The notes beneath the pieces were generated by a model, which ran no database searches, was not told where the DNA came from, and saw only the letters and a program-made list of their open reading frames with translations. Shown here piece after piece: positions 13,288 to 20,584 of a stretch of DNA of 64,000 bases (its first letter is position 1; each line of letters begins with the position of its first letter). The translations under genes and the position numbers were made by a program. Source of the DNA: Opitutia bacterium Tous-C4FEB (GTDB lineage Bacteria; Verrucomicrobiota; Verrucomicrobiia; Opitutales; Opitutaceae); assembly GCA_002304445.1 (NCBI GenBank), contig NEVA01000002.1:1-64000 (forward strand), given 5' to 3'.

Positions 13288-13363
13288 GGCAAGATAGCTC
13301 AGTTGGTAGAGCAGTTGACTGAAAATCAACGTGTCCCCGGTTCGATTCCGGGTCTTGCCACCA
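13288..13363 (+). tRNA. tRNA-Phe (GAA)
   Basis: A complete 76-base cloverleaf. The acceptor GGCAAGA pairs with TCTTGCC, the anticodon arm is GTTGA-CTGAAAA-TCAAC with anticodon GAA, the T arm holds GGTTCGATTCC, the discriminator is A, and CCA is encoded. A terminator follows. Confidence 0.97.
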
Positions 13364-13920: not shown

Positions 13921-13956
13921 CATCGGAGACCGGGAGCTGCGTGGGTTTCTCCGATG
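13921..13956 (+). promoter_or_regulatory. Inverted repeat enclosing the SRAP start codon
   Basis: CATCGGAGA (13921-13929) and TCTCCGATG (13948-13956) are perfect 9-base inverted copies with 18 bases between. The right arm ends in the ATG start codon. In mRNA the arms would pair and hide the start; as DNA they could be a protein site. Either role is inference. Confidence 0.5.
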
Positions 13957-14661
13957 TGCGTTCGCTATACCCTGCATCAATCTGACGCGGCCCTGAAGGC
14001 GATCTCGCGGGCGCTGGCGAAGACGCTGACGGCTGCGGTAGCGGCGGAGCCGAGGTATAACGTCACGCTCACGCACCGGATGCCGGTCGTCGCGGCGGGT
14101 GGCGACAGCGAGGCGGAGGTGCGCGGGATGGTCTGGGGGCTCGTGCCGTTCTATGAGCGGGCGAAGACGCCGCGGCGGATGTTGCCCAACGCCAAGGCCG
14201 AAACGGCGACGACGCTCGCGGCATTCAAAGACGGTGTCGCGCACCGGCGGTGTCTCGTGCCGGCCAACGGTTTCTATGAGTGGCGGACCGAGGGAAAAAT
14301 GAAGCTGCCGCATCTCTTCACGTTGCGTGACGACGAGCCGTTTGCCTTTGCCGGGATCTGGGAGCCGGCGGACGGCGATCTCCCGGAGACGTTTGGCGTG
14401 CTGACCACGGAGCCGAATGCGCTCGTGGCGCCGATTCACGGTCGGATGCCCGTGCTGCTGACCGAGGCGACGATGGCGCGCTGGCTCGGAGCGGCACCGC
14501 TGGCCGCCGAGGAATATCGGGCGCTCACGCGGCCCTTGCCGGCGGAGCGGATGACCGTGCGGCCGGTAAATCGTTTCGTGAGCAATTCCAGGAATGATGG
14601 GCCGCAATGTCTTGAACCGCCGGAGGATGCTCCGCCGGAACTGAATTTAGGCTTCACGTAG
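13954..14661 (+). CDS. SRAP domain protein (YedK/HMCES family)
   Basis: A 235-residue SOS-response-associated peptidase-type protein. The family crosslinks covalently to abasic sites in single-stranded DNA through Cys2, shielding them from cleavage. After removal of Met the protein begins with Cys2 (MCVRYTLH). Other family signs are NAKAETA (active-site Asn and Glu), RRCLVPANGFYEW, and the late histidine in APIHGRMPV. The ATG at 13954 is fixed by the need for Cys2. The gene precedes lexA and the imu cassette with a 72-base gap, which supports a DNA-damage role. The tail (about 205-235) is less conserved. Confidence 0.92.
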   Translation: MCVRYTLHQSDAALKAISRALAKTLTAAVAAEPRYNVTLTHRMPVVAAGGDSEAEVRGMVWGLVPFYERAKTPRRMLPNAKAETATTLAAFKDGVAHRRCLVPANGFYEWRTEGKMKLPHLFTLRDDEPFAFAGIWEPADGDLPETFGVLTTEPNALVAPIHGRMPVLLTEATMARWLGAAPLAAEEYRALTRPLPAERMTVRPVNRFVSNSRNDGPQCLEPPEDAPPELNLGFT

Positions 14662-14690
14662 CTTGATTTTCGGCCGGGGTGCGTTTCAGG

Positions 14691-14712
14691 TGATAGCCTA
14701 TCAACTGATAGG
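14691..14712 (+). promoter_or_regulatory. Palindromic operator candidate upstream of lexA
   Basis: Two overlapping perfect palindromes: TGATAG-C-CTATCA (14691-14703) and CCTATCA-AC-TGATAGG (14697-14712). They lie 22-43 bases before the lexA ATG, where a LexA autoregulatory box would be expected. The words do not match the E. coli (CTGT-N8-ACAG) or Bacillus (GAAC-N4-GTTC) LexA boxes. Assignment to LexA is inference from position. Confidence 0.6.
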
Positions 14713-14733
14713 TATCTTCAATCCCCTCCCGCC

Positions 14734-15339
14734 ATGCTCACCGAACGTCAGGAACAGATTTTGGATTTTGTCCGCGAGTATCAACGCGTGCACTGCGTCA
14801 CCCCCTCGACGCGCGAGATCGCGCGGCAGCTCGGTTCGTCGCAGCCGACGATTTTGGGTCACCTCCAAGCGCTCGCGAAGAAGTCACAGTTGGAGAAACT
14901 CGCCGACGGCAAATGGGGCCTGAAGACCTCGGCGGTGCAGGGGCATTTGTTCGAGGTGCCTGTGTATGGCGCGATCCCGGCGGGCCGGCCGGCGATGCAG
15001 GAGCAGGAGGTGGAGGAAACGCTGCGGATCGATCCGGCGGTGTTTGGGCTCACGCCGGCGCGCGCCTCCGAGTTTTGGCTGCTGCGGGTAACGGGCGACT
15101 CGATGATCGGGGCGAATATTTTGGAGGGCGATCTCGTCGCACTCGAGCGGCGTGAACCGAAGGCGGGCGAGATCATCGCGGCGCTCGTGGATGAGACGAC
15201 GACGACGTTGAAACGCATGGTGCGCCTGCGCGGGCGCACGGTGTTGCGGGCGGAGAACCCGCGTTACCCCGACCTCACACCCGAGCGCATCGAGTCGCAG
15301 GGCGTGGTGGTCGGGGTGATCCGGCGCAACGTGGCCTAG
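14734..15339 (+). CDS. lexA: LexA repressor
   Basis: A 201-residue SOS repressor. The N-terminal winged helix (about 1-65) contains the LexA-type HTH (PSTREIARQLGSSQPTILGHL). The self-cleavage site is Ala83-Gly84 in GAIPAGRP. The catalytic dyad is Ser123 (TGDSM) and Lys160 (TTTTLK), matching the S24 peptidase fold. RecA-stimulated cleavage would release the operon. It heads a run with imuA (18-base gap), imuB and dnaE2, so it likely controls this mutagenesis cassette and itself. Recognition-helix residues differ from proteobacterial LexA, in keeping with a different operator. Confidence 0.93.
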   Translation: MLTERQEQILDFVREYQRVHCVTPSTREIARQLGSSQPTILGHLQALAKKSQLEKLADGKWGLKTSAVQGHLFEVPVYGAIPAGRPAMQEQEVEETLRIDPAVFGLTPARASEFWLLRVTGDSMIGANILEGDLVALERREPKAGEIIAALVDETTTTLKRMVRLRGRTVLRAENPRYPDLTPERIESQGVVVGVIRRNVA

Positions 15340-15357
15340 TCGACGAGATGAACGCCC

Positions 15358-16026
15358 GTGTCCGGTTCCGCCTCCACGCTCTCCGCCCTGCGGTCCCTGC
15401 TGGCTGCACGTTTTCCGGAAAAAAACCGGAGACCGGCCGGCTGTGTGCCCACGGGCGTCGCAGCGGTCGATGAGGCGCTGGGCGGCGGGTTGCCGGTGGG
15501 GCGATTGACGGAGGTCGTCTCCGCGGTGGCGAGCAGCGGCGGGCAGACCTTGCTGACGCGATTGATTGAGGAGACGCGCGTGGCTCGGCGGCGGATTGCA
15601 CTGGTGGACGGGGCGGACGGGTTTGCGCCGGAGTCGGTGTCGGCTGATGCGTTGCGGCACGTGGTGTGGGTGCGCGGACAGGACCTCGCGCAGGCGCTGG
15701 CGTCGGCCGATGTGCTGGTGCGCGACGGAAATTTCGCCGTGGTGGTGGTGGATCTGCGCGGGTGCGACGAACGGGCCTTACGGAAAACGCCCTCGGCGAC
15801 CTGGCACCGGCTGCACCGGGCGACGGAGGCGGGCGCGACGGCGGTGCTGGTGCAAAGCACGGGCGCGCTCGTGCCGGCGGTGCCGTGCCGGTTGATCCTC
15901 GGGCGGGCGCACGCGCTCGCGAGCCGGCGGGTGGAACGCGGAGAGCTGGCGGCCCAGCTCACGGTCGAGGTTGCGCGTGGGCACGCGGGGCTGTTGACGG
16001 ACGGCGTGGAGGCGCAGGCCGGATGA
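15358..16026 (+). CDS. imuA: ImuA, RecA-like accessory factor of the mutasome
   Basis: A 222-residue protein starting at a GTG 18 bases after lexA; an ATG 10 bases earlier is out of frame. The RecA-like fold is indicated by TGVAAVDEALGGGLPVGRLTE at the front and the hydrophobic VVVVDLRG strand near residue 127. The Walker A position reads ASSGGQTLL, so the P-loop lysine is replaced by Gln and ATP hydrolysis is doubtful. Family members work with ImuB and DnaE2 in damage-induced mutagenesis. It overlaps imuB by four bases (ATGA). Confidence 0.88.
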   Translation: MSGSASTLSALRSLLAARFPEKNRRPAGCVPTGVAAVDEALGGGLPVGRLTEVVSAVASSGGQTLLTRLIEETRVARRRIALVDGADGFAPESVSADALRHVVWVRGQDLAQALASADVLVRDGNFAVVVVDLRGCDERALRKTPSATWHRLHRATEAGATAVLVQSTGALVPAVPCRLILGRAHALASRRVERGELAAQLTVEVARGHAGLLTDGVEAQAG

Positions 16027-17474
16027 ATTACGCGGCGCTGGTCGTGCCGGATTTTTCGCTGCATGCGGTGCGGCGGAGCGATGCGTCGCTCGCGGGGCGG
16101 CCGCTCGGCATTGTCGCGGGCGAGGGCCGCACGGCGGTCGTGCGGGCGGTGTCGCCCGAAGCGACCGGCGTCGAGCCGGGACTGGCGGTCACGCTCGCGA
16201 TGGCGCGGTGTCCGGCGCTGGTGTTGCGGCCGCGCGATCCGACGGCGGAGACGGAGGCGGGCTGCATGGTGATCGCGGCGGCGTTGACGCTTTCGCCGCG
16301 AGTCGAGCACACCGGCGCAGGCTGGTGCACGGTGGATTTGCAGGGAGCGGACGAGGCGCGGACGTTGGTCACGTTGCGCCTGCGGCTGGGGGACTTGGCG
16401 GCGGTGGGGATTCCGGTCCGCGCGGGTATCGCGGGGACGCCGCTGCTCGCGGCGTTGGCTGCGCGCAGCACGGAGACGGTGTGCCTGGTGCGCGCGCCGG
16501 CGGAGTTTTTGCGACCGCTGCCGCTCGCGTGGGCCGAGCCCACGGCGGCGCACGCGGAGATTCTGGCGGGGTGGGGCGTGCGGACGCTGGGCGACCTGAC
16601 GGCGTTGCCGAAAGGCGAAGTTGGGCAACGCCTCGGGCCGACGGGTGCGGCGCTTTGGGAACGCGCGGCGGGCGAGACGACGCGACCGCTCAAACTGGTG
16701 GAGCCGAAGAAATCGTTTGCGGCGGCGTGGGCGTATGATCCGCCGGTGGAGTCGCTCGAACCGCTGCTGTTTTTGTTGCGACGTTACGCGGAACGGGTGG
16801 CGCTGGAATTGCGCGCGGCGGGATTTGTCGCGGAGAAACTCGCGCTCACGCTGCTGCTGGAGGACGAGACCGATCACCGGCGGGAGTTTCGCCTGCCCGA
16901 GCCGGGGGCCGACGTGGACGGGTGGCAGCGGATCCTGCACGCGCACCTCGAAACGCTGAAGACGGCAGCGCGCGTGGTCGGTGTGCGGCTGGTGGCGACG
17001 CCGGCTCGGCCGCCGGAGAAACAGGACGGATTGTTTGAGACGGGGCTGCGTGATCCGGCGGTGTTTTGGGAAAGCCTCGCGCGCGTGGGCGCGCTGGTGG
17101 GCGACGACCGCGTGGGCACGCCGGTGGTCGCGGCAACGCATCGGGCGGATGCGTTTGTCCTGACGAAGCCCGCCGAGGCGGTGCCGGAGCCGGAGTCCGC
17201 ACCGGTGCATGCAGCGAGGGGGCTGGTGCTGCGACGGTTCCGGCCGGCGTGGCCGGTGCACGTGCACTGCGACGGAGCGAGACCGGTGGAGATCGTTGGC
17301 GGACAAATCGGCGGGGACGTGTGCGCGGCGAGCGGGCCGTGGCGGAGCGAAGGCGAGTGGTGGACGGCGGCGGCGTGGGCGGTTGAGCTCTGGCAGGTGG
17401 AGTTGGCGGCCGGCGGGTTGTATCAATTGGCGCGGACGGCGGACGGCTGGTGCGTCGAGGGAGTTTTCGACTGA
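16023..17474 (+). CDS. imuB: ImuB, Y-family polymerase-like mutasome hub
   Basis: A 483-residue Y-family polymerase relative. The N-terminus (MNYAALVVPDFSLHAV) aligns with the DinB palm start. The second acidic motif, normally S-x-D-E, reads TVDLQGADEA here, so catalytic metal ligands look degraded, as known for ImuB. A helix-hairpin-helix-like region (GWGVRTLGDLTALPKGEV) and a little-finger-like part follow. The C-terminal region (about 360-483) is the family-specific tail thought to contact partners. The role is to link ImuA and DnaE2 to the sliding clamp. It overlaps imuA by four bases and dnaE2 by one, showing tight coupling. Confidence 0.9.
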   Translation: MNYAALVVPDFSLHAVRRSDASLAGRPLGIVAGEGRTAVVRAVSPEATGVEPGLAVTLAMARCPALVLRPRDPTAETEAGCMVIAAALTLSPRVEHTGAGWCTVDLQGADEARTLVTLRLRLGDLAAVGIPVRAGIAGTPLLAALAARSTETVCLVRAPAEFLRPLPLAWAEPTAAHAEILAGWGVRTLGDLTALPKGEVGQRLGPTGAALWERAAGETTRPLKLVEPKKSFAAAWAYDPPVESLEPLLFLLRRYAERVALELRAAGFVAEKLALTLLLEDETDHRREFRLPEPGADVDGWQRILHAHLETLKTAARVVGVRLVATPARPPEKQDGLFETGLRDPAVFWESLARVGALVGDDRVGTPVVAATHRADAFVLTKPAEAVPEPESAPVHAARGLVLRRFRPAWPVHVHCDGARPVEIVGGQIGGDVCAASGPWRSEGEWWTAAAWAVELWQVELAAGGLYQLARTADGWCVEGVFD

Positions 17475-20400
17475 TGGCGCGCGGGGATTACGTCGAGTTG
17501 CACGCGCGGAGTGCGTTTTCGTTTCTGCGGGGCGGCTCGCTGCCGGAAACGCTCGCGGCGGAGGCGGGACGACGGGAGTTGCCGGCGGTGGCGCTCTGCG
17601 ACCGGGACGGGGTTTACGGGGCGGTGCGGTTGCACATGGCGGGCAAGGAGGCGGGCGTGCGCGCGCTCGTGGGGAGCGAACTCACGATGGAGGACGGGAG
17701 CGTGGTGCCGGTGCTGGTGGCGTCGCAGGCGGGCTATCGGCGGCTGTGCGGGCTGCTGACGACGGCGCACCTGCGGGCGGCGAAGGGCGAAGGGCGCGTG
17801 GCATGGTCGGAGTTGGCCGAGGACAATGCCGGGCTGATCGCGCTCACGGGCGACGAAGCCGGCCCGGTGCGGCGCGCGTGGCGGGCGCACGGGGCAAGGG
17901 CGGCGGGCGAGGGCGGGGAGAAGTTGCGCCGGATTTTTGGGCGCGACCGGCTTTTTGTCGAAGTGCAGCGGCATCACGTCGCGGGCGAGGAAGCGGAGAA
18001 CGAGTTTTTGGCGGATTGGGCGGGGGCGCATGGATTGCCGCTTTTGGCGACCAACGGCGTGCTCCACGCGACGCCGAGCGCGCGGGCGGTGCTCGATGTG
18101 TTCACCTGTTTGCGCGAGCACACGACGCTCGATGGGGCGGGGCGACGGCTGGCGATCAACGGCGAGCGGCACCTGAAAACCGGCGCGGCGATGGCGGAGC
18201 TGTTTTGCGATCTGCCCGAGGCGGTGGCCAATACGGCGCGGCTGGCCGAGCGGTTGGAGTTCACGCTCGCAAATCTCGGCTACCGGTTTCCCGACTACGC
18301 GGTGCCGGCGGGCGAGACGCAGGATACGTTTGCGCACAAGATGGCGTATTTCGGCGCGCAACAACGCTACGGCTCGGTCACGGGCGACGTGCGCCGGCAA
18401 CTGGACCGCGAGTTGGCGCTGATCGCGAAGCTGGGGTTCAGCGGGTATTTTCTGATCGTATGGGATCTGTGCACGTTTGCCCGGGAGCGCGGGATTTTGG
18501 TGCAAGGGCGGGGAAGTGCGGCCAACAGCGTGGTCTGCTACGCGCTCGGGATCACGGCGGTCGACCCGATCGCGAGCAAGTTGCTCTTCGAGCGGTTTCT
18601 CTCCGAGGGGCGCTCGGACTGGCCTGATATCGATCTCGATCTGCCGAGCGGTGACGCGCGCGAGAGCGTCATCCAAGAGGTGTATCGGCGCTACGGGAAA
18701 CTGGGCGCGGCGATGACGGCCAACGTGATTTCGTTTCGCGGTAAAAGCACGATGCGTGAGGTGAGCAAGGTGCTCGGCCTACCCGACGATGTGTTGGACC
18801 GGTTCAGCAGTCTGTTTCACGGCGGGGATTATCCGCACACGCTGGCGTTGAAGGAGCAGTTGAAACTCGCGGGGATCACGGCGGACCACCCGCGGCTGGA
18901 GGCGCTCGTGGCGACGTGTCAGCAGGTGCACGGACTGCCGCGCCACCTCGGGCAACATTCGGGCGGCATGGTGCTCAGCGCAGGGAATCTCTCCCAATAC
19001 GTGCCGCTGGAGAACGCGCGGATGCCGGGGCGCAGCGTGCTGCAATGGGACAAAAGCGACTGCGAGGACATGGGCATCATCAAGGTCGATCTCCTCGGGC
19101 TGGGCATGATGGCGGCGATGCAGGAGACGCTCGAAATCTGTGCGGCGCGCGGGCAACCGGTGGACTTGGCGCGGTTGCCGAAAGACGACCCCGCGACGTT
19201 TGAAATGATCCGCGCGGCGGACACGGTGGGCGTTTTCCAAATCGAAAGCCGGGCGCAGATGGCGACGTTGCCGCGCATGAAGCCGGTGACGTTCTATGAC
19301 CTAGCGATCGAGGTGGCGATCATCCGGCCGGGACCGATCCAAGGCGACGCGGTGAACCCTTATCTGAAACGACGCACGGGCGAGGAACCTGTGACGTATC
19401 TCGACGAACGCGCGCGGCCGATCCTCGAGCGCACGCTCGGCGTGGTGTTGTTTCAGGAGCAAATTCTGCGGATCGCGATGGAGCTGGGCGGATTCAGCGC
19501 GGCGGAGGCGGACGAGTTGCGGCGCGCGATCGGGTTCACGCGTTCGCAGGAGCGGCTGAACCGCTCGAAGGCGAAGCTGGGCGCGGCCCTAGCGAAGAAC
19601 GGCGTCACGCCGGCGGCGTCGGAGTACATCTTGAAATCGCTGGCGTCGTTTGCGCTCTACGGATTCCCGGAAAGCCACGCGATCAGCTTTGCGTTGATCG
19701 CCTATGCCTCGGCGTGGCTGAAGGTGCACCGGTCGGCGGCGTTCTACGCGGCGCTGCTCAACTGCCAACCGATGGGTTTTTATTCGAGCGCGTCGCTGGT
19801 GCAGGACGCGCGGCGGCGCGGTGTGAAGACCTTGCCGCCGTGCGTGCTGGCGTCGGATGAGCGGTGCCGGGTGGACGCGGATGACACGATCCGGCTCGGG
19901 CTCGGCTCGGTGAAAGGCGTGCGGGCGGCGGCGGTGCAATCGATTCTGGCGGCGCGGCGCGAGCGGCCGTTTGCCTCGATGGCGGATTTCTTGCGGCGCA
20001 CGGTGTGCAGTGCGGCGGAGCGGCGCGCGCTGTCGGGTGCGGGGGCGTTGAACACGTTGTCGGCGCACCGGCGCGCCGCGCTCTGGGCGGTCGAGGCCGT
20101 GAACAGCGGCGACGATCTATTCCGTCACGCGCCGGCGGCGGACGCAGACACGGAGTCGCCGCTGGCGGCGATGACGCTCGGCGAGCGGCTGCAGGCGGAC
20201 TACGAACACCTCGAAATCACCGTGGGCGCGCACCCGATGAGGCTGTTGCGGGCGCAGTTGCCCGGGGTGACACCGGCGGAGAAGTTGGGAGAGTTGGCCT
20301 CGGGGTTGCGCGTGCAAATCGCCGGAGCGGTCATCACGCGGCAACGGCCCGGCACGGCCAAAGGCGTGTGCTTCATCACGCTCGAAGACGAAACCGGACA

Positions 20401-20584
20401 CGCCAACGCGATCGTGCGGCCGGGGCTGTTTGAGTCGGCGCGGCTCATCATCAATCTGGAGCCCGCGCTGCTGATCGCGGGCCGGCTGCAAAACGAACGC
20501 GGCGTGATCCACGTGTTGGCCGAGACGATCACGGCGCTGCCGGTCGGCGGACTGCCGGCGCAGGCGAGTCACGATTATCACTAG
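17474..20584 (+). CDS. dnaE2: Error-prone DNA polymerase DnaE2
   Basis: A 1036-residue C-family polymerase used for translesion synthesis. The PHP domain opens with YVELHARSAFSFLRGGSLPE and CDRDGVYGAVRLH. The catalytic palm contains WPDIDLDLPSGDARE near residue 390 with the paired aspartates. KVDLLGLGMMAAMQ and the fingers follow, then a C-terminal OB-fold region (about 930-1030, VQIAGAVITRQRPGTAKGVCF). The size and short C-terminus fit DnaE2 rather than replicative DnaE1. The ATG overlaps the imuB stop by one base. It completes the lexA-imuA-imuB-dnaE2 cassette and should be damage-inducible. Confidence 0.93.
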   Translation: MARGDYVELHARSAFSFLRGGSLPETLAAEAGRRELPAVALCDRDGVYGAVRLHMAGKEAGVRALVGSELTMEDGSVVPVLVASQAGYRRLCGLLTTAHLRAAKGEGRVAWSELAEDNAGLIALTGDEAGPVRRAWRAHGARAAGEGGEKLRRIFGRDRLFVEVQRHHVAGEEAENEFLADWAGAHGLPLLATNGVLHATPSARAVLDVFTCLREHTTLDGAGRRLAINGERHLKTGAAMAELFCDLPEAVANTARLAERLEFTLANLGYRFPDYAVPAGETQDTFAHKMAYFGAQQRYGSVTGDVRRQLDRELALIAKLGFSGYFLIVWDLCTFARERGILVQGRGSAANSVVCYALGITAVDPIASKLLFERFLSEGRSDWPDIDLDLPSGDARESVIQEVYRRYGKLGAAMTANVISFRGKSTMREVSKVLGLPDDVLDRFSSLFHGGDYPHTLALKEQLKLAGITADHPRLEALVATCQQVHGLPRHLGQHSGGMVLSAGNLSQYVPLENARMPGRSVLQWDKSDCEDMGIIKVDLLGLGMMAAMQETLEICAARGQPVDLARLPKDDPATFEMIRAADTVGVFQIESRAQMATLPRMKPVTFYDLAIEVAIIRPGPIQGDAVNPYLKRRTGEEPVTYLDERARPILERTLGVVLFQEQILRIAMELGGFSAAEADELRRAIGFTRSQERLNRSKAKLGAALAKNGVTPAASEYILKSLASFALYGFPESHAISFALIAYASAWLKVHRSAAFYAALLNCQPMGFYSSASLVQDARRRGVKTLPPCVLASDERCRVDADDTIRLGLGSVKGVRAAAVQSILAARRERPFASMADFLRRTVCSAAERRALSGAGALNTLSAHRRAALWAVEAVNSGDDLFRHAPAADADTESPLAAMTLGERLQADYEHLEITVGAHPMRLLRAQLPGVTPAEKLGELASGLRVQIAGAVITRQRPGTAKGVCFITLEDETGHANAIVRPGLFESARLIINLEPALLIAGRLQNERGVIHVLAETITALPVGGLPAQASHDYH

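Follow-up and report, generated by a model that had tools for sequence, protein, structure and literature searches.

Does the LexA of a mutagenesis locus control only its own genes, and through what operator? This question is raised by a 64,000-nucleotide stretch (the window) of contig NEVA01000002.1 from Opitutia bacterium Tous-C4FEB (Verrucomicrobiota; Opitutaceae), in which five genes in one direction encode an SRAP protein, the SOS repressor LexA, and the mutasome proteins ImuA, ImuB, and DnaE2 (ImuC). A preliminary description had read all five as one damage-response block, with abasic-site protection and mutagenic bypass controlled together. Here, we find a perfect palindrome just before lexA, downstream of SRAP, and show that among related genomes the type of this site varies with the recognition helix of LexA. 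We think it likely that lexA-imuA-imuB-dnaE2 is one damage-inducible mutagenesis operon, self-repressed by LexA at re-specified tandem operators. Operons of this kind are known; the operator and the LexA helix are what is new.

The predicted operator before lexA and the place of SRAP

The 72-bp spacer between SRAP and lexA holds a palindromic site in lexA's own promoter, the predicted operator CCTATCAACTGATAGG, with a weaker tandem copy, CGTTTCAGGTGATAGC (Table 1). The preliminary description had credited the locus with its own operator type, leaving the location unspecified; we identify it as CCTATCAACTGATAGG. This sequence occurs exactly once in the organism's genome (G000, a 3.76-Mb draft of 39 contigs with 96% completeness), between SRAP and lexA. 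Three further places match with 2 mismatches, and a reversed-pattern control also gives three matches. The site is not of the type GTTC-N4-GAAC, which we take to be canonical for LexA in Verrucomicrobia: its half-site at positions 6-3 is CTAT instead of TGTT. The canonical operator is GTGTTCANNTGAACAC.

The gene layout of the preliminary description holds throughout, from coordinates and families to the junctions, which read directly as an 18-bp gap between lexA and imuA and overlaps of 4 bp (imuA-imuB) and 1 bp (imuB-dnaE2). Profile searches also bear out a complete mutasome headed by lexA: the three genes that follow adjoin and belong to mutasome families, with ImuA at 51 bits, under the cut-off of 150 of its NCBIfam model NF033429. 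LexA matches both the winged helix-turn-helix (HTH) family PF01726 and the S24 peptidase family PF00717 above their cut-offs, and is the only Peptidase_S24 match in its genome. Its A83-G84, which we take to be the cleavage site, and S123 and K160, presumably the catalytic dyad, stand in columns that are invariant in 35 aligned sequences and align with LexA repressors in the PDB. The same five-gene block, with LexA 95-96% identical, is found in the nearest named relatives, the isolate Opitutus sp. GAS368 (locus L136) and another Opitutia bacterium (L137). A tRNA-Phe (GAA) gene lies a short distance upstream of SRAP, at 13288-13363 of the window.

Table 1. Features of the lexA locus, with positions in the window
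Feature	Position	Strand	Description
SRAP	13954-14661	+	ATG start, TAG stop; PF02586, E-value 2.5e-54; outside the predicted operator-controlled unit
Weaker tandem operator copy, CGTTTCAGGTGATAGC	14682-14697	unstranded	15 bp upstream of the main copy; predicted
Main LexA operator, CCTATCAACTGATAGG	14697-14712	unstranded	Predicted; perfect 7-2-7 palindrome CCTATCA-AC-TGATAGG; geometry shared by relatives
lexA	14734-15339	+	TIGR00498, 123.6 bits (cut-off 110.95); A83-G84, S123, and K160 present
HTH turn (residues 34-36) and recognition helix (37-49)	14833-14880	+	Most relatives have one more residue in the turn
imuA	15358-16026	+	GTG start; RecA-like
imuB	16023-17474	+	Y-family-like; IMS and IMS_C domains
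dnaE2/imuC	17474-20584	+	Error-prone DNA polymerase III alpha; NF004225, 1176.9 bits (cut-off 939)

The SRAP protein starts with Met-Cys (MCVR in translation), and its relatives in the PDB include YedK and the 5-hydroxymethylcytosine-binding protein HMCES. Its proposed joint control with the mutasome is not supported, because no operator-type palindrome precedes the gene. We looked for such a site in the 200 bp before SRAP, and found no palindrome with at least 6/7 pairs in the same genome, in L136 and L137, or in the relatives G024 and G038. In G069 and G030, the sole candidate is a G+C-rich 6/7 palindrome at -187, unlike their operator. Among 33 distinct SRAP upstream regions (200 bp plus 20), two hold a perfect 7-2-7 palindrome, both made of G+C only.

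In related genomes, the lexA-imuA order is widespread. Adjacency of SRAP is sporadic. We examined 123 unique LexA loci that extend 1 kb or more upstream: 44 have a LexA of 52% identity or higher and 79 a less similar one, and 42 of the 44 and 75 of the 79 extend 1.5 kb downstream. In 74 of the 123 (20 of the 44 and 54 of the 79), imuA comes after lexA, at most 1.5 kb away. Thus, a lexA-headed imu cassette is common here, and the order lexA-imuA-imuB-dnaE2 is ordinary, such cassettes being already known. SRAP precedes lexA in seven of the 44 closer loci (that of the window, L136, L137, L146, L151, L152, and L031, some of them nearly the same species) and in none of the 79 more distant ones.

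We therefore regard a single co-regulated damage block, in which SRAP and the imu genes are induced together, as quite improbable. The shared strand, the short spacer, a terminator scan that shows none between SRAP and lexA, and the recurrence of the adjacency in several lineages speak for it. Against it are the position of the operator after SRAP, the lack of an operator-type palindrome before SRAP even in relatives with the same adjacency, the absence of SRAP from the more distant loci, and G024, which has SRAP-lexA and no imuB match. Read-through from the SRAP promoter into lexA is possible.

Operator types and the LexA recognition helix

Related lexA genes carry sites of the same geometry. 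We compared 128 unique loci from family genomes and other Verrucomicrobiota; the 120 family genomes are a sample of a larger family, LexA matches that were weak or partial were left out, and 80 loci, the best of 178, were kept. Within 80 nt before lexA, a 7-2-7 palindrome pairs at 6 or more of its 7 positions in 110 of the 128 loci (11.4 in mononucleotide shuffles, which also served for the recA search below), and a perfect one is present in 73 (0.3 in shuffles). A LexA match at E 1e-3 was not found in 49 of the 120 family genomes examined, and 63 of the 71 having any have a single one. Our literature search turned up nothing on the LexA operators of Opitutaceae, subscription papers being mostly outside its reach.

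The centre C-A-N2-T-G is common to most operators, and the outer positions vary; we call each operator type a dialect. Under a strict filter (79 rows passed and 49 failed; a looser one kept 102), the half-sites at positions 6-3 are TGTT (40), CACT (8), TGTC (8), CTAT (6, the type of the window), TGCT (5), TGAA (3), TTGT (2), and TGTA (2), with CATT, TGGT, TGGA, TGAT, and CGAA once each. Calls of type GAA are doubtful (L097, L099, L128, and L135); dropping TGAA and CGAA and adding CGTT leaves twelve half-sites, four of them from one locus only in the strict set. L097 (genome G003) has two overlapping palindromes, of which the GTT one was taken. On a poorly resolved tree we count 19 dialect changes, a number inflated by the doubtful GAA calls. 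Where a genome has two LexAs with readable dialects, these differ in G001, G064, and G003 and agree in G005; in G066, they differ only if a weak second site is accepted. Six loci (L123, L125, L129, L130, L131, and L133) have operators of a different geometry, two bases shorter in the centre (GTGTTCATGAACAC).

The tandem arrangement is also shared. Of the 17 loci whose LexA is at least 68% identical, 15 have their best second site at a distance of exactly 15 bp (1.9% when each operator flank is shuffled; another tie rule changes the count slightly). All 15 have CTAT, CACT, or CATT half-sites; L007 and L012, which lack this spacing, have TTGT. Five loci (L017, L020, L148, L149, and L150) have an extra gene, glyoxalase-like by eye, directly before lexA at the head of the imu operon. 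A site of this kind then stands in front of the extra gene, 409-421 bp upstream, and, by eye, a second copy lies 15 bp on.

We find that the operator covaries with the HTH of LexA. An AlphaFold2 model places the two helices at residues 26-33 and 37-49 (block predicted local distance difference test scores of 93 and 92). All 19 LexAs with the one-residue deletion in the turn have T or A, not G, at operator position 5, and G stands there in 82 of 83 without it; the one deviating row, L017, was miscalled within coding sequence, and the operator found later has G. Residue 38 of the window's LexA is Pro, at the position of Asn41 in Escherichia coli by alignment through relatives (a direct HMMER alignment with PDB LexA puts the gap elsewhere). 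This residue is Pro in 7/7 rows of type TAT, Gln in 3/3 of type TGT, and Ala in 9/9 of types ACT (8) and ATT (1), plus one doubtful GAA row. In L017, L148, and L150, which have Ser at the Asn41 position, the half-sites are CCGT or GCGT (type CGTT); L149 has Thr there and an operator that is exactly CCGT-N8-ACGG, and L020 has Ser and one TGTT arm.

The same association appears in pairs of LexAs. In four bins of C-terminal-domain identity from 0.65 to 0.85, helix identity (residues 36-42) is 0.38, 0.51, 0.56, and 0.50 for pairs of different dialect and 0.62, 0.71, 0.73, and 0.67 for pairs of the same dialect; the other residues of the DNA-binding domain give 0.56-0.73 versus 0.58-0.79. The binned pairs are not independent. 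With greedy disjoint pairs (identity 0.6-0.9), the helix is 0.51 and the other residues 0.69 identical between dialects (n = 26), versus 0.84 and 0.81 within a dialect (n = 34).

It is therefore very improbable that some unrelated regulator binds these palindromes, or that the dialects are noise in chance palindromes. The excess of perfect palindromes over shuffles, the 15-bp spacing, the tracking of the recognition helix by the operator among close relatives, and the presence of one dialect at both recA and lexA in G044 and G098 all argue against it.

The reach of LexA in the genome

An operator at recA, which would mark a global SOS repressor, is absent: the organism's recA promoter region has no lexA-type operator with up to 4 mismatches. 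It bears instead a different, perfect 9-1-9 palindrome, TAAGACATATTATGTCTTA (G000:C38:100258-100276; loci L231 and L295). Among genus relatives, the recA of G109 has this palindrome with 0 mismatches, in a genome with no LexA match; G018 and G062 have it with 2 mismatches, and in G088 it was not found. No other exact copy was found in the five genomes searched, and one 2-mismatch place lies in the organism's own genome.

Elsewhere the picture at recA varies. In G044 and G098, recA bears the lexA dialect of its own genome with 0 mismatches, and in G004 it has a partial match (3-4 mismatches). G066 has a cassette LexA of type GTC and, by eye, a GTT-type site at recA. With up to 3 mismatches, no dialect site was found at recA in G000, G018, G062, G088, G059, G085, G107, G001, or G050. 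In all nine, position 5 of the operator is T or A; most G-type genomes likewise lack a recA site. No start was found for G010, G083, and G066, which were read by eye, and the G024 row may not be the recA promoter because its recA is in fragments.

Nine relatives searched with their own dialects give matches at about the control level, the lexA site itself aside, with the exception of a second exact TTGT-type match in G024 (C51:2427). In the organism's own genome, pattern searches and open reading frame (ORF) context gave no clear second target. A near-match common to G018 and G062, CACTCAAATGACTG, was discarded as a target, as it lies inside a long ORF in both. Palindromic lexA operators without adjacent imuA occur at L010, L139, L143, L145, L008, L011, L014, L007, L012, and L016. 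In the nine such genomes checked, whose operators are of type CACT, CTAT, or TTGT, the search for ImuB gave either nothing or a DinB-like protein at 24-28% identity, and so no match of ImuB grade. The LexA of the imuA-less loci appears to repress only itself.

Several results weigh against our reading of the locus. A sigma-70 consensus scan found no promoter. With 1 mismatch, the core TATCANNTGATA matches 17 places in the organism's genome versus 7 for the control, and a crude filter puts 6 of the 13 places read away from the cassette outside ORFs, with 2 more places beyond those read. A wider regulon is therefore possible. The window's LexA could, then, have kept a global SOS role through more degenerate sites elsewhere, some perhaps at genes beyond those covered; the genome is an incomplete draft of many contigs. 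We hold this to be rather unlikely, given that the 14 specified bases match exactly only once in the genome, that the recA promoter region lacks a site, and that, G024 apart, the relatives' own dialects stay near control level.

Other such points concern the helix. Below 0.65 identity, its association with dialect is little or opposite, with the sign reversed at 0.55-0.65, and the GTT type occurs with many helices; therefore, there is no simple helix-operator code. The other residues of the DNA-binding domain are also somewhat more different between dialects. An approximately unbiased (AU) test does not reject a single clade for type TAT (P = 0.20), type TGT (P = 0.19), or all deletion-type rows (P = 0.44), so few independent events may underlie the match of helix and operator. 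Within the deletion type, four dialect changes suffice.

A probable self-repressed operon and its closest known systems

We favor a self-repressed mutagenesis operon, in which LexA would bind the tandem operators at 14682-14712 and repress lexA-imuA-imuB-dnaE2, probably as a single transcript. On damage, RecA filaments would trigger self-cleavage of LexA at A83-G84 and the operon would open; ImuA-ImuB-DnaE2 would then perform error-prone, mutagenic bypass until new LexA closes it again. The turn deletion and a change at the Asn41 position to Pro, Gln, or Ala would accompany the re-specified half-site, CTAT here and CACT, CATT, or TTGT in relatives, with the inner C-A-N2-T-G geometry largely kept and the 15-bp tandem kept except in the TTGT type. 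Within its genome, this operon seems to be the main or only target of LexA, and SRAP would be a neighbor with separate transcription.

The closest counterpart is the lexA2-imuA-imuB-dnaE2 (imuC) operon of Pseudomonas putida, which a review describes as one transcript under control of its own LexA2 (PMC3901139). Both are lexA-headed mutasomes. P. putida has two LexA regulons; the present locus differs in its one LexA, its half-site, and its tandem 15-bp operator. SRAP genes adjoining imuA-imuB-dnaE2, sometimes with lexA, were described by Aravind 2013 (PMC3765255). Here, by contrast, SRAP and the cassette have a predicted LexA operator between them.

The LexA motif of Verrucomicrobia, reportedly described by Erill in 2016 as GTTC-N4-GAAC, comes from the same phylum, and this geometry is the commonest type among our loci; the window's half-site departs from it. 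SOS repressors elsewhere also change motif: PMC8565304 proposes hypervariability and a duplication model, with divergent palindromes at the repressors' own promoters in Weeksellaceae. There, the repressor is non-homologous and has paralogues, whereas here a canonical LexA shows about twelve half-sites in one family, mostly with a single LexA match per genome. LexA408 is said to pair particular helix residues with a CCGT site. The natural LexAs with Ser at the Asn41 position (L017, L148, and L150) resemble it in their half-sites; they differ in being natural and in offering several alternatives. L149, with the exact CCGT operator, has Thr there, and L020, with Ser, has a single TGTT arm. LexA408 itself is a laboratory E. 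coli LexA of altered specificity, with altered helix and operator (PMC8222386 and PMC9614035).

More tentatively, LexA may have radiated within one family into about a dozen repressor-operator pairs on a shared scaffold. In the window's lineage, the turn deletion might have freed an otherwise near-invariant G:C pair, and Pro, Gln, and Ala swaps at the Asn41 position might have chosen the half-sites. This could have been possible because LexA shrank to a single-operon switch for itself and the mutasome, with another regulator taking over recA. Regulon loss is a possible, not an established, cause of dialect change.

Dialect change appears here between genera of one family, and the likely cognate operator can be read beside each lexA. 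These natural repressor-operator pairs are a ready set for testing how a repressor coevolves with its site, and whether such change is made possible by a shrunken regulon. They are also a possible supply of orthogonal repressors for laboratory circuits.

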